Origin: a virus
DNA length: 32,242 nucleotides
Reading direction: 5' to 3' (one strand)
IMG/VR virus record: IMGVR_UViG_3300030099_004985
Location: 1-32,242 of that record
The notes beneath the pieces were generated by a model that did not search any database, was not told the origin of the DNA, and saw nothing but the letters and a program-made list of their open reading frames with translations. Position numbers and translations under genes: made by a program. The first letter of the stretch is position 1; each line of letters starts with the position of its first letter. Shown here piece by piece: positions 1,990-14,628 of the stretch.

Positions 1990-2582
1990 TACGTGTCACC
2001 AATGCGTGTAAAAGTAAAGTGAGTCTGGTTAGCACTAGAACTACCCATAAGAGCATTTCCGTCGTTGCTCTGGGCTACGGAAAAACGAACCTTTACAGAC
2101 GAGGTAGAGGTTACGTCTACTAATGCAGAAAGAAAAATGTTTCCGAAGTCTACCGTAGGCAGTCCGCTTTCCAGTCCTTGAGCAGCCGCTGCAAACGTAG
2201 GCGTCTCAAGATCGGCGTTTGTGGAAACGTCGATTGAAACGGTGCAGTTGCCAGTTCCTGCTGTTGCAGCAGCCTGAAACACTGCCTCTACCTTGTAAAT
2301 GCCAGTCTTAGGAAACGTGAAGACGCCGCTAGACTGAGACATCGTGTCGCCGCCTAGCTTAGCAGAGCGATTCAAGTTAGAAGAAATAGGAGCCGCATCG
2401 CCCGTTAAGTTTGACGTAAGGCGCCACTGATCAATGATTGGATTAAAGTATACTGAAGGAATAGCTCCCTGAGCGTTTAGCTGAACTACCTTTCCAGAGT
2501 CAGCAGAATTTAGTGAAGTCCCATCATTAGTAGATGAGGTAGCAACTTCTTTTAAAAGTTCTGTAGTTACCCTAGTAGTCAT
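1989..2582 (-). CDS. Probable fiber-associated protein with C1q/TNF-like jelly-roll
   Basis: A 197-residue protein directly downstream of the tail fiber, coupled to it by TAATG. Residues 1-50 (MTTRVTTELLKEV...GKVVQLNAQGAIPSVYF) look like a short attachment or stalk region. From about residue 50 onward there is alternating beta-strand sequence, with FTFPKTGIYKVEAVFQA and a final SSANQTHFTFTRIGDT. This resembles C1q/TNF-like trimeric heads: a 'G.Y.v...v' strand and an aromatic last strand. I infer a virion appendage, probably a second receptor-binding or fiber-tip protein. No enzymatic motif is visible. The fold call is by eye and would need structure prediction. Confidence 0.6.
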   Translation of the reverse strand: MTTRVTTELLKEVATSSTNDGTSLNSADSGKVVQLNAQGAIPSVYFNPIIDQWRLTSNLTGDAAPISSNLNRSAKLGGDTMSQSSGVFTFPKTGIYKVEAVFQAAATAGTGNCTVSIDVSTNADLETPTFAAAAQGLESGLPTVDFGNIFLSALVDVTSTSSVKVRFSVAQSNDGNALMGSSSANQTHFTFTRIGDT

Positions 2583-4912
2583 TATTCAACCCGTGTAAGT
2601 CTAAGAATTTGATTATTAACAAAGTAGCTTCTGTCGTCCGCGCTAAATGTTTCTGATAAAACGATTCTAAATTTATAATTAGAGTTGTTAATACCACCTT
2701 CGGTGTGTTGGTTATTTTGAGCAGTATCTGTGGCTTCCCTTCCTCCTACTGTAAATACAATTCGTAGCATTCCAGTAGCAACTGAAGCGTCATTAACTGC
2801 CGATATCGTAATACCATCTGTTGCATCTGGAATCGTATTCCAAGTATCTGTTCCATTACCGCTGCCATCAGTGGCTCCACTAGGAGGGCTTGAATTAATA
2901 ATGTGTTGAGCCTGCACAGCAGCTCCGGCCCGATCGTCATCGCTAGTATTCCTGACTCGACAAGAGTAATCTACTAACCAAATACCTTTTGTAATGCTGA
3001 TATAATCTTCAGTTTCGTTAACAGTAAAACCTGAGTTTGGCCTAACAAAATGGTCAGTACCTTGGATTTGGACTAAAACTCTGCTGTTATTTGGAACAGA
3101 TGTGTCAAATGGGTGTAGCAAAAGATGGCCGATAAAAGCATTAGTATTAACGTAGTCGATAACTTGCTTTTTACAGACTGCGTAAGCGTTTCCTACATCC
3201 GGGCTGTCTATAGCAATGTTATTAAATTCTGGAAGAAGCAAAGGAGCCGGATCTTCGTCGCTTCCAGCACTTCCGCCCTGTCCAGACGGAATTTTAAAAC
3301 CTCTTAGAACAACGCCATCACTTTGCCATCTTAGGCCAGGACCGAGTTGAGGTGAATTTCCATCGCCATTAAACCGAATCGATCCAGGCCCACCATTGCC
3401 GTTCTGACCCGTGCCGCCATGACCAATAGTTACGCGACCTAAGTTATCAATCGCAATGGCTCCAGGCTTAGTCGTAGTCCTGATGCCGACATCACCGTCA
3501 TCCGAAACAAGCTCATTAGTACCTGGTATAAGTTCAATGCTGCCAGTTTGCGTAAGCTTATCAGAGCTAATCTCTAGGTGATCGCTTCCTGTAAATCCGA
3601 TCGTCTTGCCGTCAGTAACGGTTACGTTATCCTGCAAGGCTGTCGTGCCTTGAATCGTAGCATTTCCGCTAGCAGTAAAGCCAACAACTGTAGCGTCTCC
3701 TGAAATCTCCAGGGCTCCGCCGTAAGTAACCTTAAAGGCAGTCAAAAGAGACCCGTCAGAGGCCCAGTCGTAGACGCGAACAGCTACATCGCTAGATGCA
3801 GGTGCTTGGCCCTGGACCTCAATGATCCCGTTATTGCTTGAAGTATAGAGCTTTACTCCATGCTTGTCAGGGTTTCCGTTTCCAACTGTATCAATGGCTC
3901 CTACTTGAATCTTAGTAGTAGACATTGAACTGCGTCCCACAGCTTCTGTGTCACCAGGGCCGACAATAACTTGACCTGTAGGATCAACACGGAACAACTC
4001 AGTTGCAGAGGGATCCTGTGCATTGATTACATCGCCTTGCTGGCTGTTTAGAATATCAATACTTACGGCGTGACTAGTTGCGTTTGTTGCCTCACCAGCC
4101 CTGAATGGGGTGCTAAGAATATTGCGGCTTGCCCCAAAGTTCCTGACAGTTACCTTTGTGGATGGATCCAGATTAAGAGCGGCTGTTCCAATTAGTCTAA
4201 GTTCAAACTCTCCTGCGGACTCAGTGACCGTGTAGTCAGTGCCCGGTATTTGCATTACGCCTTGAATCTCAATCAAGAACATCTCGTCTACCGCAGTAGC
4301 AGGCGTTGGGTTGACTAGGTCAAACACCAAGTCATTGCTTACAGTTTGAAAGTCACCAATTGTCAGCGACCATGCCTGCGGCAGTTCTGCTCCGTCAAAC
4401 AATTTAAGACTAGTAACGTGACCTAAAGTTACTGCGTCAAAGTCGTTAATTGCTGTTCCCAGGTTTTTGATCCGACGATTGCCTGCGTTGTAGGTGTTGT
4501 CGGTCTCAATCGGCAGCGCACCTCCACCAGTATCAATAGACTCCTGGACGCTATACAGCAGTTGGTTGGTCTGCGTATTGAGGTCGCTAGCCTTGAGCAC
4601 GGAGCCGTCTGAGAAGACGCGGGCTGCTTCGTCAATGCTAGTTGATCGACCAATGCGGACTTCGTCGGTTGCTGTCAGATCTACCCCGCCTTCTGCTGCT
4701 GTCTTAATGACAACCTCAAGAGATGGAGACGTAGTGACCGTAAATTGAGAAGAAGTAAGATTGGTAATTGCACCGCCCAATCCGGTCACAGTCACGTAGA
4801 TGTCGCTGACAGTTACAAACTGTAATCCAGTAGGGGCAAACGTGCCTGAAATCTGAGTAGCGTTGAGATCTCCGGCAGTCCCGAAGTCAACGTATGAGTA
4901 AGGTGAGGGCAT
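2582..4912 (-). CDS. Tail fiber protein, T7 gp17-like N-terminus
   Basis: A 776-residue fiber (T7 gp17 has 553). Residues 1-125 are the conserved virion-attachment domain: PYSYVDFGTAGDLNATQ, VSDIYVTVTG, DEVRIGRSTSIDEAARVFSDGSVLKASDLNTQ. Residues 140-260 continue with a second beta-rich domain. Residues 290-540 are repetitive Gly/Asp/Thr-rich strands (ISGDATVVGFTASGNATIQGTT; GPGSIRFNGDG), expected to form the trimeric beta-helical shaft. Residues 585-776 look like a jelly-roll head ending NNQILRLTRVE. The distal part probably binds the host surface. The gene starts 2 bp after the gp16-like stop and is coupled to the next gene by TAATG. Confidence 0.9.
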   Translation of the reverse strand: MPSPYSYVDFGTAGDLNATQISGTFAPTGLQFVTVSDIYVTVTGLGGAITNLTSSQFTVTTSPSLEVVIKTAAEGGVDLTATDEVRIGRSTSIDEAARVFSDGSVLKASDLNTQTNQLLYSVQESIDTGGGALPIETDNTYNAGNRRIKNLGTAINDFDAVTLGHVTSLKLFDGAELPQAWSLTIGDFQTVSNDLVFDLVNPTPATAVDEMFLIEIQGVMQIPGTDYTVTESAGEFELRLIGTAALNLDPSTKVTVRNFGASRNILSTPFRAGEATNATSHAVSIDILNSQQGDVINAQDPSATELFRVDPTGQVIVGPGDTEAVGRSSMSTTKIQVGAIDTVGNGNPDKHGVKLYTSSNNGIIEVQGQAPASSDVAVRVYDWASDGSLLTAFKVTYGGALEISGDATVVGFTASGNATIQGTTALQDNVTVTDGKTIGFTGSDHLEISSDKLTQTGSIELIPGTNELVSDDGDVGIRTTTKPGAIAIDNLGRVTIGHGGTGQNGNGGPGSIRFNGDGNSPQLGPGLRWQSDGVVLRGFKIPSGQGGSAGSDEDPAPLLLPEFNNIAIDSPDVGNAYAVCKKQVIDYVNTNAFIGHLLLHPFDTSVPNNSRVLVQIQGTDHFVRPNSGFTVNETEDYISITKGIWLVDYSCRVRNTSDDDRAGAAVQAQHIINSSPPSGATDGSGNGTDTWNTIPDATDGITISAVNDASVATGMLRIVFTVGGREATDTAQNNQHTEGGINNSNYKFRIVLSETFSADDRSYFVNNQILRLTRVE

Positions 4913-4914
4913 AG

Positions 4915-7900
4915 TTATCGGTTAGATTCGGGTAAGTTTCGGGAAATCATTTTTTCAATTACTTGATTTACTAGAGGAATTTTAGTTAGCCAAATTAACG
5001 ACGCAACATCTCGTGCATCTTGTTGCCTAAAATCGTAATCAGCCCTTAACGACTTCGCCATTGCAGAAAGACTGCCAAAGGCTGTGTAAACATTCTTATG
5101 TGCGGTTGACCCGCTAAGAGGATCAATTCCAAGACCCGTAGTTCTCATTGATGCATCAAACACACCTTCACCATCAGCATGGAAAGCGAGAATGTCGGTC
5201 AGCATTGGAATAATAGTAGAATAACCCGATCGAAGAATAGCGGACTTTAGCAGCCTTTCTTCTTGGGTTTTTTCTGTCCAGTAAGCCATAGGATCTTCTT
5301 GACCTAAAGACCTGTAATAAGTAATTGTGACATATCCAAGCATTGCCAGTGCGGCGCTTCCTACTACATTTACAGCCTCCTTCGCATCTCCTCTGGCTAT
5401 GCCCGCTGCTAGCTGCTTACTCTTTGCAGCAACTGTAAATACTCGGAATTGAGTAAAGATCTTAAACAGACCTTCATTCATCCATGCAGGGAGTTCTCCA
5501 GCCGTTTGCCTTTGAATCATACTGTCAGTATGGCGACGCAGGGCTAGGATAAACTTATCAATAATATATTTGTCTTCTACTTTAGAGAAGTCAAAATTAT
5601 TGACCTTGTAAGGACCAAACAGTCCTTGGCTGGTTTGGACATTATCGGTATTTCTAAGAATTTTAGTTAGCCGGTTGATGTCTTCTTCGTTCATGCCCAG
5701 CTCTCCAAATCTAACTTTAGAGTTGTTCCACCAGCTTTTATTTAGAGTTATTTTACCCTTAGGTCCTGACTTATAGGCTGTATCAACAAAGTGCTGGAAC
5801 GAAGCCCTAGCTGCCCACCTTCTCAAGAAGGTGTCCATAGGCATAATGCCTAGAGGATTCAAAGAAGCAAAAAGACGGCCATTGTCTAAGGCTCTTCCTA
5901 ACATTGTTTGAAGGAAGTCATCATCGATAGCCAGATCATCCATGCGGCGCATGAAGTGATCGCCTCTATTTAGATCTCCCCCAATACCAGTAAGGGTTTC
6001 GATAGAAGAGGCAAACTTATTTGCTTTCGTAGTTTTGCCCTTCAGACCCATCGTAAAGATATCTAGAGCTTCTCTAGGAGAAAGCTGATTAAGGGCGGCG
6101 CTAAAACTTGTCCTAAGAAAAATATTGGCAATCTCTGGAATCTGGGCCAGTCCCAGAGTCATTCCCATTGTTCCCATTGAAAGCATGTTTAGGAACGTTC
6201 CGGCCTTTACGACTTCATTCCGATACAGCTTTTGGCCTGTCAGCATTTTAAAGTGAAGCTCTACCTGACCTGCAAAGAACTCTGCATCCTTGACACTGTC
6301 TCCAGCCTGTAGAGAATCTTCATAAACGCGGCTTTTTAAGGCAGACAGGCCATCAATCTCACTGACATCGTCAGTAATAGCAGCGAGCATGTTTCTAGCT
6401 TCTGCTCCTCCAATAATTTGACGAGCATACTGACGATTAATATTTGTCAGGCTGTTGTCTGTTAGATCAGCAAACCTAACAGTTCCAATGCCGTCAAAAT
6501 CCATAGCGAAAGTCTCGTCCAAGCCTAAGCGGTGTTTGCCGTGACTAATGTGAGACTTGTGATCAACATGGGGAATGATGAGTTCTAGAATATCATCCAC
6601 GCCATAGTCTGTCTTTGCGGCTACCCCACCCGCAGCCCGCGACTCTTCCATTTCTTTGGCAAGAGTCTTCTTAAGCCTATTGATACTCTCAATAGTGCTG
6701 TTCCAGTCTCTGTGAGACTGAGGGTTTGATCCATAACTGACGATTCGTTCGGCTGTCTTCTTGGCGTCGCTTCTTGTCAGCTTAAACTTTTTAGACTTGC
6801 TATGGCTTAGGGCTGATTCAGTAAAGAACTCAACAAGTTTCTTTTTGCCTTCTTCCCTGTTTCCCTGCCCAAGTTTTTCGATTGCAATATGAAATTTATT
6901 GCTAGACCACCTTCTAGGAAAGTAGTTAGCAATACTAGCAACGCCGTCAACAAATACGCCTGCTTTTTTAGCGTGATCAAAAAGCTGCTTATAATACTTT
7001 CTAACCGCTTCTGCCGCGTATTTCTCAGCAGCGCCTCCTCCAGAACCGCCTCGAACAACGTGGACTACAAGTTGTTCATCGAGATTCTTACCTTCCTTAG
7101 CAGCTATTTCCGCTGCTTCATCCATCTTTTTTGCTAGAGCAGTTTGGATGATTTCAAAGTTAGCGTCTGCGACTGAACGGGCGCTGGCGGGTCCTCCCCC
7201 ACGGGGACTCGTCATTAAACCTTTTCCTATCTTTCTTACAAAAGGACTTTTGCTTCGTTGCATCCTAAAGAAGGTAGGAGTAAATACCTTGTAGAATCCT
7301 ACTCCAATCTTCTTTAACATTTTAATTGGAAGCATTTCATCTCCCCTGATTGTGACGGGAGGCGCTCCTGTCTCATCAATCAGACGAGCCGCTGTTTCTC
7401 TTCCCCCCTCTCCGTGTCCAAAGATTGTTCTAGGACCGGCGTCTTCAGCTAGTTCTTCTGCATTAACAGAAAGGAAAGGACCTTCAGAAAGCCTTTCTCC
7501 TGTATCGGAAACAATTGCAGACTCAGGCTCTTCCGAAAGAGGCCTTTGATTCAACGAATCGATTTCATCTGGGTTTGTAACCTCAGACTTCTTGATGTTG
7601 GAGTTTGGGAAAGTGTCTGTTTGAGAGTCATCTGGAACAGCCTTGTCAGCCTTGGATACTGATACGGCGGCTGTTCTTTTTCTGTATTCTTCAAGAAGAC
7701 TCTTTTTCTTGTCAATAACTTTTTTAAGAAGTCGGTCCCTAATTTGCCGCTCTTGTTTTTCGGCTGTTTCTTTCTGAAGAGACCTTTCCTGGGCTTTCCG
7801 CAGCCTTTCTCTATTTTTATCTAAAAGATACCTAAGTCGTCTTTTTCTTTTTACTGATTCTGAGTTAAGATATTCTCTACGCTTTTTAAGTTGAGCTAGT

Positions 7901-10413
7901 TTTTCCTTTCTCTGGGCTCCTCTAGACTTTATTTTGTCTAGAACTTCTTTGTCAATTTTCTTACTAATATTAGCAAGCCCAGCGATTGCTGGGTCAATTC
8001 CAGAAGAAACTTTACTAAGAGACATCTTTACAGGACCGATAAAGTCAGCAGGCCCAATAAAGTCAGGATCTCCAGGAGCAACAGCTCGGAAAGCGGCTCT
8101 CTTGCCTCGGGGGTTATTGCGAATAGCCCATAGATTTAGAATAATTTGACCGTTGTTTCTTTGCTTGCTACCGACAGCAAATGGCTTTACTAGCTTTGCC
8201 TCTAATTTGTTGTATTCTGACTCAAAAGCTTTCATCTCCCCCTCGGAGGCTCCTCCTCTTTCCCGCTGAGCTTTCCTAATTTTTTGAAGCTCTTTTTCGT
8301 CAGCTAGAATTTTAGCTTGAATACTCTTGTCTCGTTGCTCCCTGGCAGCTTTGATGCTTTTTTCGAGTTCAATATCTACAGGTCCTACAAAATCAGAATC
8401 GCCAACCTGAGGAGCCTTCCCGCCAGCCCTGTCCTTTCTAGGCAGATTTCTTTGCTTTTGCTGCCTCTCCCTCTTTATTTCAAGAGCCCGCTCTCTAATC
8501 TCTGCAAGTTGCTTATCTTCTTCGGCGAGCCGCCGTAAGTATTTCTTAGGATCTCTATTAAATCTCTTTAGCTCTTCCCCGGCAAACTTTAGATTAAAAT
8601 CAATTTCTTCAATTGCTTCTTCGAGTTTTTGAATTTTATCTTCAAGCATACGGCCATCGCGGCTGCGCTGCCAAAGTCTAAATTCTTCGTTTGTTTCTGT
8701 TGCAAAAAACTTCTTTTCACTAATTAAGAATAAAGAGTTTAGAACTTCTTCATTTTCTAGTTTTAGTCTTTCTCCGTCCTCGACAGCTTTTTCTAGAGAG
8801 TTTCTAAGATTTTGAACATCACTGTCTACCTCTTTGCCTAGGGCTTGATCAATAATCTGATCTCGATTAGATGCGACAGAATCCTTTGCTTCACTGGTCT
8901 TCTTTGGAAGAACCTTTCTCCTGCCGCTCTTCTTGTTCTTGGCGGTCACTAAGCCCGCTTTTTCCATCTTATCAAGAACTTTTTCTGCTTGAGTCCTAGT
9001 TAGATTAAACTTCTTTCTAAGAAAAGCAACACTAGCTTTGTTTGAACTGAGAACAGCTTCTTCAAACAAAGATTGTGATTTAATCGGAGGTCCCACAAAC
9101 TGGGACGGACCCACAAATTCAGGATCTCCTGGACGCGCAGTGGATCTTTTAGTAGGACTAATTAGATCAAGAGGACCTACAAAGTCAGGGTCTACATCTT
9201 GACGAGGAGCAAAAGGAATCTCCGTAAGATCATCGGGATCAATAAGATCATCAGGATCATCAGGAATCTGCCTCCTTGGTCCTACGAAATCAGGATCATC
9301 GACTCGAACGGCATTTAAGTTAGGTCCCTCAAGATTTCTTGGTCCTACAAAATCAGGGTCACTAACTCGGACGACCCCTAAGTTAGGACCCTGAAGCTGA
9401 GGAAAATCCCTAGGAGCAGGGGGTCCTACCTGATTAAGAACAGGATCTGCCTCTAGATCAATGCCAAGCCTTCGTGCTTCTGCCGCCAACTCTCTGGGCG
9501 ACATTCGCAAAACTTCTTCTACGATGTCGTCGTCAGTCAGCTTTTCAATCGACACCTTTGGATTCAAAGCATCGAGAATTTTCTGAGCTTCTTTGTTGCT
9601 CCCTGCTGCTTGCACAGCCTGCCTTACTGCGGTGGTTTCAGAAGCCCTCTTTAGATTCTGGAATACTTGAGGAAAAGCTCCTCCAATAGCCCCTCCAAAT
9701 CCTGCCGCAGTTCCTAGAGAAATGAGCAAGTCTTGAACAGTCATTGTGTTATCATATTGATATCTGACTAGTTCAATAGGGGTGTCCACGGCTGCTACAA
9801 GAGACAAGCCTGAAAGCACTCCCTTTATTCGTCGGTAGCGAATTGCAGAGGAGGCTACAGCCCCTCCAGTTCCTATTCCTCCAGTTAGAGCCGTGACCAG
9901 TCCGGTATAGATAGCAGCCTCTCCTCCAGCCGCAATCAGTACAGCAGCCCCGCCAGCTATGGGGCTATCGTTAAAGATCTCCTTCCTCCTCCGAATAGTG
10001 GTGCGAGCTTCGTCGGTCTCAAACAGGAACTGCTCAAGAGATTGAGATTTACTAGCAATCCTTTCTACTACTTCTTTTGGAAGATCTGAGGCAAAGTAGT
10101 CAAAGTCTTCTTGTTGAAATACATAATCAGTTTTAGCAAAAGAAGGGTCAAACAAATTAGAAAGAGCCTGACCCGTTCCTGTTTCTTCTGCTATTGCATT
10201 ATAAAATTTACTTAGAAACCCTACATCAGCAAGAGGGACTTGATCGTAGTAGTTCCTAAGCTGACGCTGGGTTCTTGCCTGAGGAGTATCCGGGGCTGAG
10301 TAAGGGTTGTTTAAAGTTGTCTTGTAGGCGTCGTATAGAATACGAGCCCTGGCACTCCGAGAATCTTCATAGACTGTTTTTGGATCGTATCCTGAAAAAT
10401 CTAAACTAGTCAT
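4915..10413 (-). CDS. Internal virion protein, gp16-like, giant form with repeated DPDFVGP motif
   Basis: The 1832-residue product occupies the T7 gene 16 position (gp16 has 1318 residues) and is expected in the internal core, ejected to build the DNA-delivery channel. Residues 1-145 are helical and 150-250 contain Gly/Ala-rich hydrophobic segments. Residues 350-442 hold DPDFVGP three times, DPEFVGP and QFVGP. Residues 448-491 resemble the winged-helix FtsK gamma domain. Charged coiled coils span about 540-730 and 820-915, with further motif copies at 672-678 and 782-794. Residues 1040-1832 are the long helical C-terminal region, with a hydrophobic segment near 1685-1700. I do not see the N-terminal transglycosylase domain of T7 gp16. 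TAA to ATG spacing from the gp15-like gene is 2 bp. The base composition is AT-rich relative to the capsid gene. Confidence 0.85.
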   Translation of the reverse strand: MTSLDFSGYDPKTVYEDSRSARARILYDAYKTTLNNPYSAPDTPQARTQRQLRNYYDQVPLADVGFLSKFYNAIAEETGTGQALSNLFDPSFAKTDYVFQQEDFDYFASDLPKEVVERIASKSQSLEQFLFETDEARTTIRRRKEIFNDSPIAGGAAVLIAAGGEAAIYTGLVTALTGGIGTGGAVASSAIRYRRIKGVLSGLSLVAAVDTPIELVRYQYDNTMTVQDLLISLGTAAGFGGAIGGAFPQVFQNLKRASETTAVRQAVQAAGSNKEAQKILDALNPKVSIEKLTDDDIVEEVLRMSPRELAAEARRLGIDLEADPVLNQVGPPAPRDFPQLQGPNLGVVRVSDPDFVGPRNLEGPNLNAVRVDDPDFVGPRRQIPDDPDDLIDPDDLTEIPFAPRQDVDPDFVGPLDLISPTKRSTARPGDPEFVGPSQFVGPPIKSQSLFEEAVLSSNKASVAFLRKKFNLTRTQAEKVLDKMEKAGLVTAKNKKSGRRKVLPKKTSEAKDSVASNRDQIIDQALGKEVDSDVQNLRNSLEKAVEDGERLKLENEEVLNSLFLISEKKFFATETNEEFRLWQRSRDGRMLEDKIQKLEEAIEEIDFNLKFAGEELKRFNRDPKKYLRRLAEEDKQLAEIRERALEIKRERQQKQRNLPRKDRAGGKAPQVGDSDFVGPVDIELEKSIKAAREQRDKSIQAKILADEKELQKIRKAQRERGGASEGEMKAFESEYNKLEAKLVKPFAVGSKQRNNGQIILNLWAIRNNPRGKRAAFRAVAPGDPDFIGPADFIGPVKMSLSKVSSGIDPAIAGLANISKKIDKEVLDKIKSRGAQRKEKLAQLKKRREYLNSESVKRKRRLRYLLDKNRERLRKAQERSLQKETAEKQERQIRDRLLKKVIDKKKSLLEEYRKRTAAVSVSKADKAVPDDSQTDTFPNSNIKKSEVTNPDEIDSLNQRPLSEEPESAIVSDTGERLSEGPFLSVNAEELAEDAGPRTIFGHGEGGRETAARLIDETGAPPVTIRGDEMLPIKMLKKIGVGFYKVFTPTFFRMQRSKSPFVRKIGKGLMTSPRGGGPASARSVADANFEIIQTALAKKMDEAAEIAAKEGKNLDEQLVVHVVRGGSGGGAAEKYAAEAVRKYYKQLFDHAKKAGVFVDGVASIANYFPRRWSSNKFHIAIEKLGQGNREEGKKKLVEFFTESALSHSKSKKFKLTRSDAKKTAERIVSYGSNPQSHRDWNSTIESINRLKKTLAKEMEESRAAGGVAAKTDYGVDDILELIIPHVDHKSHISHGKHRLGLDETFAMDFDGIGTVRFADLTDNSLTNINRQYARQIIGGAEARNMLAAITDDVSEIDGLSALKSRVYEDSLQAGDSVKDAEFFAGQVELHFKMLTGQKLYRNEVVKAGTFLNMLSMGTMGMTLGLAQIPEIANIFLRTSFSAALNQLSPREALDIFTMGLKGKTTKANKFASSIETLTGIGGDLNRGDHFMRRMDDLAIDDDFLQTMLGRALDNGRLFASLNPLGIMPMDTFLRRWAARASFQHFVDTAYKSGPKGKITLNKSWWNNSKVRFGELGMNEEDINRLTKILRNTDNVQTSQGLFGPYKVNNFDFSKVEDKYIIDKFILALRRHTDSMIQRQTAGELPAWMNEGLFKIFTQFRVFTVAAKSKQLAAGIARGDAKEAVNVVGSAALAMLGYVTITYYRSLGQEDPMAYWTEKTQEERLLKSAILRSGYSTIIPMLTDILAFHADGEGVFDASMRTTGLGIDPLSGSTAHKNVYTAFGSLSAMAKSLRADYDFRQQDARDVASLIWLTKIPLVNQVIEKMISRNLPESNR
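9088..9360 (-). repeat. Cluster of DPDFVGP-type coding repeats in the gp16-like gene
   Basis: DPDFVGP occurs at residues 352-358, 373-379 and 408-414, DPEFVGP at 430-436 and QFVGP at 438-442 of the gp16-like protein. More copies lie outside the cluster at 8380-8400 (DSDFVGP) and 8032-8070 (DPDFIGP, ADFIGP). The DNA of the copies is related but not identical (for example GATCCTGATTTCGTAGGACC versus GACCCTGATTTTGTAGGACC), so the amino-acid motif is conserved beyond a fresh DNA duplication. Confidence 0.85.
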
Positions 10414-10415
10414 AA

Positions 10416-13400
10416 TTAGTTATCTTCAGAGTCAGGTTCGTTAGTCTTTACAGGACGGGGTGCCATGGGCTCGGCTAAACGGGCCGGAGAGTCTACCGGT
10501 GCAATCTCTCGGCCCGTAAAAGGCCTCGGGAATAGGATTGCTTTTTCCGCTTCGCCTGGGTAGGGGGTAGCAAGAATCATCATTTCTCTTTTAGAAAACT
10601 CAAGAGCAGAAGAATCAGAAGCGTCAAACGGTGACCTTAATTGAGGAGTATACCCAGACCCCAGCGTGTCTTTAACAAATAAGTAGTAGGCTTTGCCTTT
10701 AGATCCTGGCTTTGGAGCAAAAAAGAAATCTCCATTAGCTGACTCAAGCTTTACTGCCCTAATAATTTTATTGTACAGACTGTCAGCGGCAGCAACATTT
10801 CTCGGCTGTTGCTTATACCACATATCAAGCCTTTTCTGGATCGGTTCTGACTGATACATATAGGTAAAGCCAGCGTCAGCATAATAACCCGACCTAGTCT
10901 GTACAAATTTATTTGCTCTAGTAAGCATTTGAGAAAGCGTCATAGATGTCCGAAAACCTAACTCATCTGCGCTTTTCTCAGGTGCATTCCCGTAAAGACC
11001 CACTTTCAGAGTATTTTCTTTACTAATTCGTTTTAGAACATTAGGATCAGAACCTGCACCAAAACCTCCCTTGGGACCTTTATAAGGTTTGCTATTCCTG
11101 AAAGCACTTCCAATTCTTGAAAGCACGATTCGGGTTTGCGGTATTTGCATTTCAGGATCCTCGCCCGAAATAGTCCTGGGATCTACGTCTTCTTTAAAAG
11201 TTAGTTTTCCTGACCCAACATTAACCGCAGATTCTTTGAGTTTGGATAATGTTTTATTAACAGCCGTTTCAATGTCTGCTGTTGGTCTTACTACCATCAA
11301 AGATTGCACCCTGTCATAAACAAGACGTTTAGCTCTCTCAGGATCAATAAAAGCTTCAAAGGATGAAGACAGAGAATTGATTTCACTCTGTACGTCGCTA
11401 GCGGTTGCTCGGAAAGATTGAACAACACTCTCTGTGCTTAAAGCTCCTTGAGCCATGCGCTGTTGAATATCTGGGATCTGGCTGGCTAGCTGACCTAAAG
11501 GATCGTCTCCGTAATACATAGAATGCAAGGCTTGGAATAGACTGTTATTCTTGCCTAGAATTTTCTGAACAATTACGTCGTTTGTGTTGGCCGTTTTAAG
11601 CTCTTCAACCACCAAAAGAGAAGTCCTTAGATTGGCAATCTGCTTAGGGCTGGCATCAGTTGACTGCATTGAAATGACGTTGTTAAACCAATCAGTCAAG
11701 GGCGCGTCTTCAGATCTAAGATTAGGATTTTGGCCTAAGGTCCTAGCTCTTGCGACGACCGCGATCATATCTTTTCTATCTCTTTCGTTTTCAATCTCAC
11801 CCAGGAATGCATAAGTTGGATGGCCTGGATGTTGAGGGTTAGAGATAGCCAGATTAATGAAGTCCTTTTCTACCTCACTCTGCTTTAGAACAACAGCCGA
11901 TATAGCTTTGTTGTAGAGTGATCTAATATTAAAGGTATATGGTTTTCCTCCTAAATCAACAGACCCGTCAGGATTAGCAGCAGGAAGAGTAATTTCTTCA
12001 CCCTCAACAATTACGGGAAGAGTGCTCGTATTTTCAATTACTGAAGCTAGTTCTCCTACATTGATTTCCGGCGAAGATCCTTTTGTTATAGTTTTAGCAA
12101 GTGCTTCTACAATAGCCCCGTTAGCATAGTTAATTCTATTGTTGAAATCTTCAATTCTATGCTCGTTTTGTGCTCTTTCAGCCTCTTCCTCCTCAGCTTT
12201 CTGGGCTTCTTCTGCCCTTTTTTCCAGGCTATCCTTGATGTTGCCTTCAATAGATTCTTTATTTAATTGATAATAAGTTTTGACTGATGATGTCTCTTGA
12301 AGACTAGACTTAGATTCATTAGGCCCTGTAGTTATTTGACTGAGAACGTCTAGAGTAAACTGAGCTTTTTCGGGGTTGTCCTGAGAATTTCTTTTTGCAA
12401 AGTCTACTAAAGATTTTCCAATAATAAAATTTAGTTCCTCTCCAGGAAGAACCCCTGTTCCAAATTCCTGGTCTAGAAAGTTGGAAATACTTTGAGCAAC
12501 ACTGGTTGCTGTTTCTTTTACTTGATTATCTGCTTCTTCATCAGTACGCGGCCTTACGTCCTGAATAGTCCCTTCTTGACTGAGAGTAATAAACGGAATA
12601 TCTTCAATAGCTTCGATATATCCGCCCTCTAACATCTCGACAACCTCGCTGCCTACGTGTAGCGACTGGCTTTCAGTTGCTTTTTTGCGAGTTAACTTAG
12701 ACCACTCTTTCTTTAATCTAACCCAATCTTTAATCCGTTTTGATTCTGCTGTTGCATATCCCACTCCTGGATCTGGCAGTGATTGAGTATTTTGTAGAAG
12801 CGTGGCAGTCTCAGTTTCGTATCGCTCTCTAAATTTTTCAATATCAAATAAAGAAGGGTTATTCTCTAAATCTTCAGAAAGGTTTTCTAAAGCTTGATCG
12901 TAAAGAGCACCAGCAGTTAGGGAAGCGTTTAACCTAGAAATTGCTTGCTTAGAATGATCTGTACCATCTCCAGAAACTAATGGGGCTAAGTCAGGATAAG
13001 CGGCAGCAGCGTTGTTAATTGCCGCAGTAGTTTTAGCTATACTTGTAGCGCCAGTGACAACATTGGACAGTGTAGTTTCTAGTTCTTTGGCTTGAGCCTC
13101 AGCTTCCCTGGCTTTTCTCTTTAATTCAGCGGCCTTTTCTTTGTCCTCAAGTTCTGCGCGCCTAGCCTCGGCTCTTAAATAATTTGCTTCTTCTCTTTTA
13201 CGTCGAATTTCTGACAGCCTAAACTGTTCTTGCCTGAAAACTGCTTGCTCTTCTTTTTTCTGAGAAATTGCTATATCGGTCAAAGAACTCGACAAGGCTC
13301 CGAAAGACTTTGTCAGATTATCTAAGTCTTGCGTTAGATTTTCAGCAACAGGAGTAGGCTGCACAGGAGCAACGGGTGCAGCAGGCTCCCCTGCCCGCGA

Positions 13401-13493
13401 CGGCTGAATAAAAGTAGAGACAGGAGTAGCAACTACTTGAGTAACCGGAGATTCTGGAACCTGCGGGACAGCAGTCCTTCGTCTTGTAGCCAT
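10416..13493 (-). CDS. Internal virion protein, gp15-like
   Basis: A 1025-residue protein in the T7 gene 15 position (gp15 has 747). With gp14 and gp16 equivalents it should form the internal core and, after ejection, the periplasmic conduit. Residues 1-50 are Pro/Ala/Val-rich and low in complexity. Residues 78-142 form a long charged coiled coil (K/R/E/A heptads), and a second acidic coil lies near residues 410-450. The rest is helical and polar with no enzyme motif I recognise. It starts at an ATG 11 bp after the gp14-like stop. The DNA is clearly AT-rich (about 27-30% GC in the lines 12241 and 12841). The assignment is by order and character, not by conserved motif. Confidence 0.8.
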   Translation of the reverse strand: MATRRRTAVPQVPESPVTQVVATPVSTFIQPSRAGEPAAPVAPVQPTPVAENLTQDLDNLTKSFGALSSSLTDIAISQKKEEQAVFRQEQFRLSEIRRKREEANYLRAEARRAELEDKEKAAELKRKAREAEAQAKELETTLSNVVTGATSIAKTTAAINNAAAAYPDLAPLVSGDGTDHSKQAISRLNASLTAGALYDQALENLSEDLENNPSLFDIEKFRERYETETATLLQNTQSLPDPGVGYATAESKRIKDWVRLKKEWSKLTRKKATESQSLHVGSEVVEMLEGGYIEAIEDIPFITLSQEGTIQDVRPRTDEEADNQVKETATSVAQSISNFLDQEFGTGVLPGEELNFIIGKSLVDFAKRNSQDNPEKAQFTLDVLSQITTGPNESKSSLQETSSVKTYYQLNKESIEGNIKDSLEKRAEEAQKAEEEEAERAQNEHRIEDFNNRINYANGAIVEALAKTITKGSSPEINVGELASVIENTSTLPVIVEGEEITLPAANPDGSVDLGGKPYTFNIRSLYNKAISAVVLKQSEVEKDFINLAISNPQHPGHPTYAFLGEIENERDRKDMIAVVARARTLGQNPNLRSEDAPLTDWFNNVISMQSTDASPKQIANLRTSLLVVEELKTANTNDVIVQKILGKNNSLFQALHSMYYGDDPLGQLASQIPDIQQRMAQGALSTESVVQSFRATASDVQSEINSLSSSFEAFIDPERAKRLVYDRVQSLMVVRPTADIETAVNKTLSKLKESAVNVGSGKLTFKEDVDPRTISGEDPEMQIPQTRIVLSRIGSAFRNSKPYKGPKGGFGAGSDPNVLKRISKENTLKVGLYGNAPEKSADELGFRTSMTLSQMLTRANKFVQTRSGYYADAGFTYMYQSEPIQKRLDMWYKQQPRNVAAADSLYNKIIRAVKLESANGDFFFAPKPGSKGKAYYLFVKDTLGSGYTPQLRSPFDASDSSALEFSKREMMILATPYPGEAEKAILFPRPFTGREIAPVDSPARLAEPMAPRPVKTNEPDSEDN

Positions 13494-13504
13494 TATACCA
13501 AACC

Positions 13505-14179
13505 TCAGTCAGTAGAAGGGGGAGTCATGGAATCTAGAGTTCTTTGAGTAGCGTATCCACTAAGAGCAGTAGAAGTTCCTTGAAGAAGATAAGGGAATGA
13601 ACTGGGCATGGCAGTCGGGGCCAGCGGACTTACAGGGTCAATTGGAGCCATAGGACCTGGCAAAGCTCGGTTTAGTCTTGTTTGAGCTTGGGCATAGTAA
13701 GCGTTCAACTGCCTTTGTCCTTGACGTAGCTCAGATTCTAAATTCTTAAAAATAGTGCTTGTCTGCTGCGCTTCGGCTCTAGCGTATTGCTGCCTTAGAA
13801 GCCTAACAGTATTGCCCGCAGTTTCTCTATAAGATGACAAGGCTCTGACACTGGCCTGGTCTCTGTTTGAAGCATCGTTAATTCTTGCAACTCTATCGAT
13901 AGCCTGATCTCTAAATTGATTGGCCCTTTCAATCATAGTAGAGTATTGGGTATTTAAATCTCTAGACATTCCAACAGCCGTTTGGTTGTAGATGCTTTCT
14001 GCGTGCTCTGCTAGTTTTTCTTGATAATCAACAAGATCGTTGTATCTTTTAGCATTGCTAATAGCAAGTTGTTCTTTATACGCAGCGGAGGACCTTGCTT
14101 GTGTTTTAGCCGACCTGTATGAAGTATGTGCTTGAAGTCCTCCTAATACAGCGGTTGCAGCAGCTACTGGTCCACACAT
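13505..14179 (-). CDS. Internal virion protein, gp14-like
   Basis: A 224-residue protein (T7 gp14 has 196) beginning MCGPVAAATAVLGGLQA, a start I associate with gp14 homologues of T7-like phages. The body is a long polar helix rich in Ala, Gln and Arg (residues about 20-165), and the C-terminus is Pro-rich (residues 170-205). In T7 the equivalent is ejected first and forms the outer-membrane pore. The short hydrophobic N-terminus fits membrane contact, though that is inference. The gene overlaps the preceding GNAT-like gene by 16 bp, and its product is encoded directly before the gp15-like protein. Confidence 0.8.
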   Translation of the reverse strand: MCGPVAAATAVLGGLQAHTSYRSAKTQARSSAAYKEQLAISNAKRYNDLVDYQEKLAEHAESIYNQTAVGMSRDLNTQYSTMIERANQFRDQAIDRVARINDASNRDQASVRALSSYRETAGNTVRLLRQQYARAEAQQTSTIFKNLESELRQGQRQLNAYYAQAQTRLNRALPGPMAPIDPVSPLAPTAMPSSFPYLLQGTSTALSGYATQRTLDSMTPPSTD

Positions 14180-14628
14180 TTAATTAACCTCGCAAATTCA
14201 TAAAAAGGCAGTTGATCAGGACCGTGATTTACTTCGTTAATAAAAGTAAAACCCAGCCATTTAATCCATTTAATATGGACCTTGTTTCTTCCGTCAACAC
14301 GATTACAGACCATGTCGTAAGACTTTGTAAGAGTAGGAAAAAACTTTTTAGACCATCTTAAAAAAGAAATAGGTTTAGAATCAGATATCACATCTGTTCC
14401 AAGAAGCCATATGCTTCCTATGTTTTCTAAAAGCGGAACTACACCAAACATTGCTACAGGAGTTTGGCCGTCCATTCCTGTAAAGCAAGGATTAGACATT
14501 CCGTAGCTGATTGTAAGAGCCTCAAGTGGAGTGCATCGATCTGAAGCCCACACCTCATCTCGGTCAGCTTTACGCATGTTAGAAGCGATGTAGTCAATGT
14601 CATCTTTTTTAGATTCTTTGATCCACAT
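14164..14628 (-). CDS. gp13-like internal protein with GNAT-type fold (DUF2833-like)
   Basis: A 154-residue protein beginning MWIKESKKDDIDYIASNMRKADRDEVWAS. This is the pattern of DUF2833 phage proteins, which have an acetyltransferase-like (GNAT) fold and occupy the T7 gene 13 position. Further matches by eye are the FTGMDGQTPVAMFGVVP strand pair, IGSIWLLGT and the late IKWIKWLGF. In T7, gp13 is needed for virion assembly and is not known as an enzyme. Whether this one acetylates anything cannot be judged, because no clear acetyl-CoA-binding R/Q-x-x-G-x-A loop is visible. It is coupled to the tail tubular B gene by TAATG. Low GC begins at this gene. Confidence 0.7.
   Translation of the reverse strand: MWIKESKKDDIDYIASNMRKADRDEVWASDRCTPLEALTISYGMSNPCFTGMDGQTPVAMFGVVPLLENIGSIWLLGTDVISDSKPISFLRWSKKFFPTLTKSYDMVCNRVDGRNKVHIKWIKWLGFTFINEVNHGPDQLPFYEFARLIKCVDQ

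Follow-up and report, generated by a model that had tools for sequence, protein, structure and literature searches.

The 32,242-nucleotide stretch analyzed here (IMG/VR record IMGVR_UViG_3300030099_004985, positions 1 to 32,242; hereafter the window) is part of the genome of a T7-like podovirus, as judged by Pfam matches to a head-tail connector, a nozzle, T7_gp14, and a T7 fiber N-domain. Its gp16-type internal virion (ejection) protein carries eight F[VI]GP copies of a short peptide of the (G/D)DP(D/N)F(V/I)GP type, six of them DP[DE]F[VI]GP-like, spread from window position 9360 down to 8032. The peptide is repeated, is conserved between duplicated units, lies in predicted disorder, is enriched in viral proteomes in an order-specific manner, and recurs across numerous unrelated proteins of the internal virion, tape measure, and gp14 types. 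We give about even credence to the reading that it serves ejected or tail-lumen proteins as a short linear motif for multivalent docking; from these observations we infer that the motif binds a partner and that its multivalency matters.

All copies are present in the minus-strand open reading frame (ORF) at 4915-10413, at the residues listed in an earlier note made from the sequence alone:

4915..10413, minus strand: gp16-type internal virion (ejection) protein of 1832 residues, the motif carrier (phrog_342 and homologs)
9340..9360, minus strand: copy 1, DPDFVGP, residues 352-358
9277..9297, minus strand: copy 2, DPDFVGP, residues 373-379, in a 63-nt tandem duplication with copy 1
9172..9192, minus strand: copy 3, DPDFVGP, residues 408-414
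9106..9126, minus strand: copy 4, DPEFVGP, residues 430-436
9088..9102, minus strand: copy 5, QFVGP, residues 438-442, forming the overlapping double FVGPSQFVGP
8380..8400, minus strand: copy 6, DSDFVGP, residues 672-678, in a short linker that separates charged helical blocks
8032..8070, minus strand: copies 7 and 8, DPDFIGP-ADFIGP, residues 782-794, forming the double FIGPADFIGP (copy 7 starts at residue 782 and copy 8, ADFIGP, at 789)

Shuffling the whole protein 20,000 times gave a mean of 0.034 copies and a maximum of 2, as compared with the 8 observed; shuffles of residues 321-450 alone gave a mean of 0.016 against 5 observed. Six-frame translation of the window yields only one further FVGP, which runs into a stop in a non-gene frame. 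Codon differences between copies had been taken in the earlier note as a sign of selection on the peptide. Pairs of 7-mers do differ by 2-5 synonymous changes, but copies 1 and 2 derive from the tandem duplication (80% identity over 59 nt), so the copies are not all of independent origin. Within the duplicated units DPDFVGP is kept at 7/7 residues despite divergence of the flanks, which indicates selection on the peptide. A fixed spacing, also considered in that note, is not observed: distances between successive motif Phe residues are 21, 35, 22, 6, 236, 110, and 6, without a strict period.

The carrier is assigned through the PHROG profile phrog_342 ("internal virion protein with endolysin domain"; E=7e-64, residues 931-1824), and has homologs in Rhizobium, Pseudomonas, and Bordetella podophages as well as at 25 IMG/VR loci. 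It is probably injected into the bacterial host. With T7 gp16 and phrog_342 it shares this profile over its C-terminal half, the gene order nozzle-gp14-gp15-gp16-fiber, and a Gly-rich hydrophobic N-terminal region; it differs in its long extra middle, its eight motifs, its coiled-coil-like blocks, its FtsK-gamma-like domain, and the lack of an SLT transglycosylase domain detectable by Pfam. SLT is not universal in gp16, as lysozyme activity resides on a gp15-like protein in K1E/K1-5, according to a review. The N-terminal 300 and C-terminal 850 residues are conserved in relatives, whereas the middle is hypervariable. Along the protein, the first five copies fall in a linker that follows a hydrophobic region and precedes a winged helix:

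9646..9963, minus strand: Gly/Ala-rich hydrophobic helical region, residues 151-256 (composition, helices in the model, conservation in relatives)
9079..9429, minus strand: Pro/Asp-rich disordered linker, residues 329-445, with the first five copies (composition, model, insertion relative to homologs)
8908..9060, minus strand: FtsK-gamma-like winged helix, residues 452-502, immediately following the motif cluster (Pfam, PDB, Foldseek)

Residues 331-445 are 20% Pro and 16% Asp. A structure prediction of residues 1-520 models the linker with almost no secondary structure and a predicted local distance difference test score (pLDDT) of about 27-35; the model is poor overall (mean pLDDT 46) and supports just the linker's lack of structure. 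In T7 gp16, the transmembrane helical segment TMH I comprises residues 243-410, and the protein from residue 411 on is modeled in the cytoplasm (PMC8954989). Residues 151-256 of the window gp16 (64% AVILMFGW, 17% Gly, helical in the predicted structure) are a putative counterpart of TMH I by position and pattern, and are probably membrane-inserting; by the same positional comparison, the motif region would be cytosolic after ejection.

The winged helix scores 31.9 bits against PF09397, with a gathering score of 30.6, and matches FtsK gamma in the PDB at E=3e-4; the first 12 matches in a Foldseek search of the PDB with its single-sequence model are likewise FtsK gamma (best E 0.009). Fold and sequence profile are thus those of FtsK gamma, but the domain sits in an ejection protein without an FtsK motor, and its recognition helix differs. 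The FtsK sequence GYNRAAR, whose residues we take to contact KOPS (FtsK orienting polar sequences), aligns with TRTQAEK, so KOPS recognition is not to be assumed for the window domain. FtsK winged helix-turn-helix domains are reported to be rare in phage polyvalent proteins (PMC5512222). The window gp16 does not fall among the large polyvalent proteins, which are recognized by several enzymatic effector domains; FtsK_gamma is its sole Pfam domain above cut-off.

A DNA-level pattern for GDP[DN]F[VI]GP matched 36 stretches among the 2.9 million viral contigs of IMG/VR, as compared with 4 for the reversed peptide, and 42 of the 45 forward matches fall within the longest local ORF. This order specificity bears out the earlier description of a peptide-level short linear motif in Pro/Asp-rich linkers. 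Positions outside the search patterns are enriched as well (Pro at -5 and -7, Lys/Arg at -6, and Pro three residues after the motif Pro), yielding the extended consensus P-[KR]-P-G-D-P-[DN]-F-[VI]-G-P-[VL]-x-P; one native form of the motif peptide is PKPGDPDFVGPLP. Among 392 ORFs of related podophages, none of the 24 permutations is as frequent as F[VI]GP itself (8 versus a mean of about 2), in a set that includes the Ptacy1537-type clade picked for the motif and contributing 1 of the 8 counts. A PDB search with the motif peptide returned chance matches only.

Arrays of DPxF[VI]GP with a second F[VI]GP occur in 6 viral stretches, as compared with 2 in a far larger bacterial and archaeal collection of 257 Gb; the latter two are an ORF of low-complexity DPDFADPDF sequence and a many-times-membrane-spanning protein of a Clostridia metagenome-assembled genome (MAG). 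Outside the window, arrays were found at loci L014/L022 (7-8 copies), L069 (10), L145 (3), L125 (2), L126, L124/L127, and L074. The double form GDPxFIGPxxFIGP is common to the window gp16 and to the unrelated L069 protein, and QGP/EGP spacers (QGP(N/T/G)-type) are common to L014, L069, L145, and the window gp16. A PHROG scan of 30 carriers identified internal virion proteins (L012, L145), tape measure proteins (L057, L142, L134, L056, L047, and, weakly, L062 and L127), and one baseplate tail-tube cap (L050), in which the motif is C-terminal. The PHROG family matched by L063 has no assigned function; the window gp16 and L012 match it too. Tape measure proteins, the tail-tube cap, and gp14 belong to the virion lumen or core. 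A restriction to gp16-type or large internal virion proteins, raised as a question in the earlier note, holds in part: carriers are mostly large internal or tail-lumen virion proteins, but they extend to tape measure proteins, gp14 tails, the tail-tube cap, and others. Placement of the motif directly after a transmembrane segment is unsupported as a general rule by a hydropathy scan, and is claimed only for gp16-type proteins read or aligned individually.

A copy at the corresponding site is found in cultured phages. Gp16 of Escherichia phage Ptacy1537 (phrog_342, E=1e-230) contains GRVDGNPDFVGPQRPKP at residue 400, an NPDFVGP copy. Over this stretch, identity is at least 90% among seven records, those of Ptacy1537 and of six Klebsiella phages; the motif was read directly in Ptacy1537 and K59PH2, while more distant relatives mostly show degenerate P[DE][FY]-type forms in the same column. 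The window gp16 and these Melnykvirinae proteins share phrog_342 and a linker after Gly-rich helices, in which the latter bear NPDFVGP. Ptacy1537 gp16 differs in having one copy rather than eight and an SLT domain, and Pfam found no FtsK-gamma-like domain in it. By comparison with T7 gp16, the Ptacy1537 copy would lie at the end of TMH I, beside the start of the cytosolic part. We infer this membrane topology of gp16 rather than observe it, because a profile comparison of the two gp16 groups aligned the region weakly (an in-register match of 29 columns for residues 151-256). Tblastn searches with the repeat segments against phage and plasmid records returned nothing or weak matches, Ptacy1537 among the weak ones; a plasmid match was rejected as uninformative, being to malonyl-CoA decarboxylase.

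While a single-protein search of IMG/VR with the window gp16 returned no relatives, 14 loci were recovered via the nozzle and 25 via gp16 alignment, some of them on the same contigs and some of them fragments. The nearest full relative, L076/L092, is 98% identical to the window in capsid, 95% in nozzle, 86% in fiber, and 88% in portal (L076), as compared with 53% in an acetyltransferase-like protein and about 36-44% over the aligned parts of gp14, gp15, and gp16. The high identity of capsid, nozzle, and fiber alongside this divergence indicates that the ejection cassette (window 4915-14628) has been exchanged or has sharply diverged, and hence that the motif belongs to the window version of the cassette. 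The genes beside gp16, which follows gp14 and gp15 and precedes the tail fiber as in T7-type genomes, are:

10416..13493, minus strand: internal virion protein at the gp15 position (between gp14 and gp16), without the motif and without a Pfam or PHROG match
13505..14179, minus strand: gp14 homolog (Pfam T7_gp14, E=4e-15), without the motif in the window
2582-4912: ORF with the T7 fiber N-domain (Pfam)

A small acetyltransferase-like gene lies between nozzle and gp14 (14164-14628, minus strand), with 53-56% identity in the relatives compared; a putative acetyltransferase is annotated beside the nozzle gene in uncultured phage S42-C7 as well. Other short repeats appear in the same variable linker of relatives: L079 gp16 (L079:17387-22570) has DLQVPG twice, as PDDLQVPGG and SQDLQVPGLYE, and L076 gp16 (L076:17249-22516) has one DLQVPG-like copy, QDMQVPGLYE. 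These sequences suggest that other lineages may use other docking motifs in this linker.

If the peptide is a docking motif, it would act from disordered linkers of proteins that sit in the tail lumen or are ejected into the cell. Most copies in the window gp16 would then be exposed between the presumed inner-membrane segment and the winged helix, a domain of DNA-binding type. During unthreading and refolding of gp16 in the envelope, these copies could bind one partner with avidity, through several weak contacts, and these contacts would fix gp16 at the membrane or help it refold there. The most interesting candidate partner would be a host prolyl isomerase or chaperone, and the main alternative a component of the virion lumen.

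Several observations weigh against a docking role. The collection-wide control consists of one permuted pattern, the reversed peptide, and Pro-rich linkers in large proteins favor words of this kind. About half of the 30 scanned carriers have no PHROG match, and others appear, by reading only, not to be tail-lumenal: a sheath-like protein (L154), a collagen-like fiber (L136), two short lipoproteins of prophages (L049, L053), and a membrane protein of bacterial origin (L167). Some of these may represent chance. Repeats are absent from gp16 of the nozzle- and gp16-alignment relatives (25 loci), and by this comparison they are dispensable in that gp16 family and lineage-specific. Absence of the motif from all homologs, a possibility set out in the earlier note, thus describes the repeats in these 25 loci but not the single copy, which stands at the corresponding linker in other gp16 proteins of phrog_342.

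The lipoprotein-like ORFs (L049:5246-5473 and L053:2172-2372) lie in Gram-positive-type prophages and have PKPGDPDFIGP after the lipobox region; their position between the tail and holin/endolysin genes of the prophage disfavors a role as quorum peptides. L167 (L167:1942-4764) is a protein of a Clostridia MAG with several transmembrane-like segments and two copies, IPQPGDPDFMGPLPLPRPGDQNFMGP; it may be a component of a conjugation channel.

The best-surviving alternative, which we nevertheless think rather unlikely, is that the peptide is simply a favored type of low-complexity linker. Its Pro, Gly, and Asp, accompanied by one hydrophobic residue, would disrupt helices and leave segments extended and able to thread, and local duplication and convergence would supply the copies without any specific partner. 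The Pro and Asp content of the linker, the origin of two copies in the 63-nt duplication, the lineage-specific occurrence of the repeats, their lack of fixed spacing, and the presence of other short repeats (DLQVPG in L079) in the same linker of relatives are all consistent with a spacer. The order of residues matters, however, as the 36 matches versus 4 for the reversed peptide indicate; F[VI]GP leads its 24 permutations in the podophage ORFs, a set partly picked for the motif; the motif is kept at 7/7 between duplicated units whose flanks diverge; and the double GDPxFIGPxxFIGP recurs in the unrelated L069 protein.

The remaining alternatives include two special cases of docking. In the first, which we regard as unlikely, the peptide would anchor ejection or tape measure proteins, before they leave the virion, on a component of the lumen (portal, nozzle, tail tube, or gp15). 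The range of carriers, from tape measure proteins to the tail-tube cap and gp14 tails, agrees with such an arrangement, but few lumen components are common to podoviruses and long-tailed phages, and L076, with a portal 88% and a nozzle 95% identical to those of the window, lacks the repeats. The sequences make gp14 a less likely partner, because in two relatives gp14 itself bears the motif: gp14 of L087/L098 (L087:12959-13738) ends in SDPNFVGPLPED, and that of L082/L112 (L082:13565-14305) ends in SSFVGPPAP, in both cases alongside a gp16 without motif repeats.

The second special case places the partner in the host. We regard as speculative and doubtful the broad proposal that P[KR]PGDP[DN]F[VI]GP, shared by short- and long-tailed phages, attaches while the genome enters to a single conserved host factor, either at the envelope or in the cytosol; small prophage lipoproteins might then present this peptide as well. 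The narrower proposal that a periplasmic or cytosolic prolyl isomerase (cyclophilin or FKBP) binds the [VI]-G-P-[VL]-x-P core and helps ejected proteins refold seems to us improbable. Cyclophilin A (CypA) binds both HAGPIA of the HIV-1 capsid and the phage-display consensus FGPxLP (PMC2959089); Gly-Pro is present in both ligands, and the motif shares their core of a hydrophobic residue followed by Gly-Pro in an exposed loop; Pro is enriched three residues after the motif Pro. Moreover, HK97 infection requires FkpA, which appears to support entry of HK97 DNA, and the T1-like phage LL5 requires the cytosolic cyclophilin PpiB, in a role that is not known (PMC7229145). However, the register differs: the phage motif, characterized here by sequence, reads F[VI]GP, so that neither strict form, HAGPIA or literal FGPxLP, is matched, and its additional conserved Asp-Pro-Asp/Asn-Phe, including the Asp-Pro-Asp part, is left unexplained.

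Least probable are protease sites that cut gp16 into domains at maturation or after entry: copies do lie between domains, and processing is known for the large packaged P1 proteins DdrB and DarA (PMC5512222), but no phage protease was recognized among that part of the window genes that was scanned, and cutting at the several single copies located at extreme C-termini (gp14, tail-tube cap) would release almost nothing.

Gp16 proteins, disordered linkers, and docking motifs are already known in kind. What appears to be new is the shared motif, its multi-copy use in the window gp16, and its combination with an FtsK-gamma-like domain; four exact peptide forms were absent from the literature searched, an open-access search that cannot exclude description elsewhere. 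It has long been debated how ejection and tape measure proteins refold, pass through the envelope, and interact with the cell, and a short peptide recurring in unrelated phage injection machines offers a concrete experimental handle, as it can be made synthetically, can serve as bait, and can be altered in an E. coli phage that is in culture. Should the motif have a host partner, it would point to a genome-entry step shared across phage types, with injection machines that are otherwise unrelated depending on the host in the same way.

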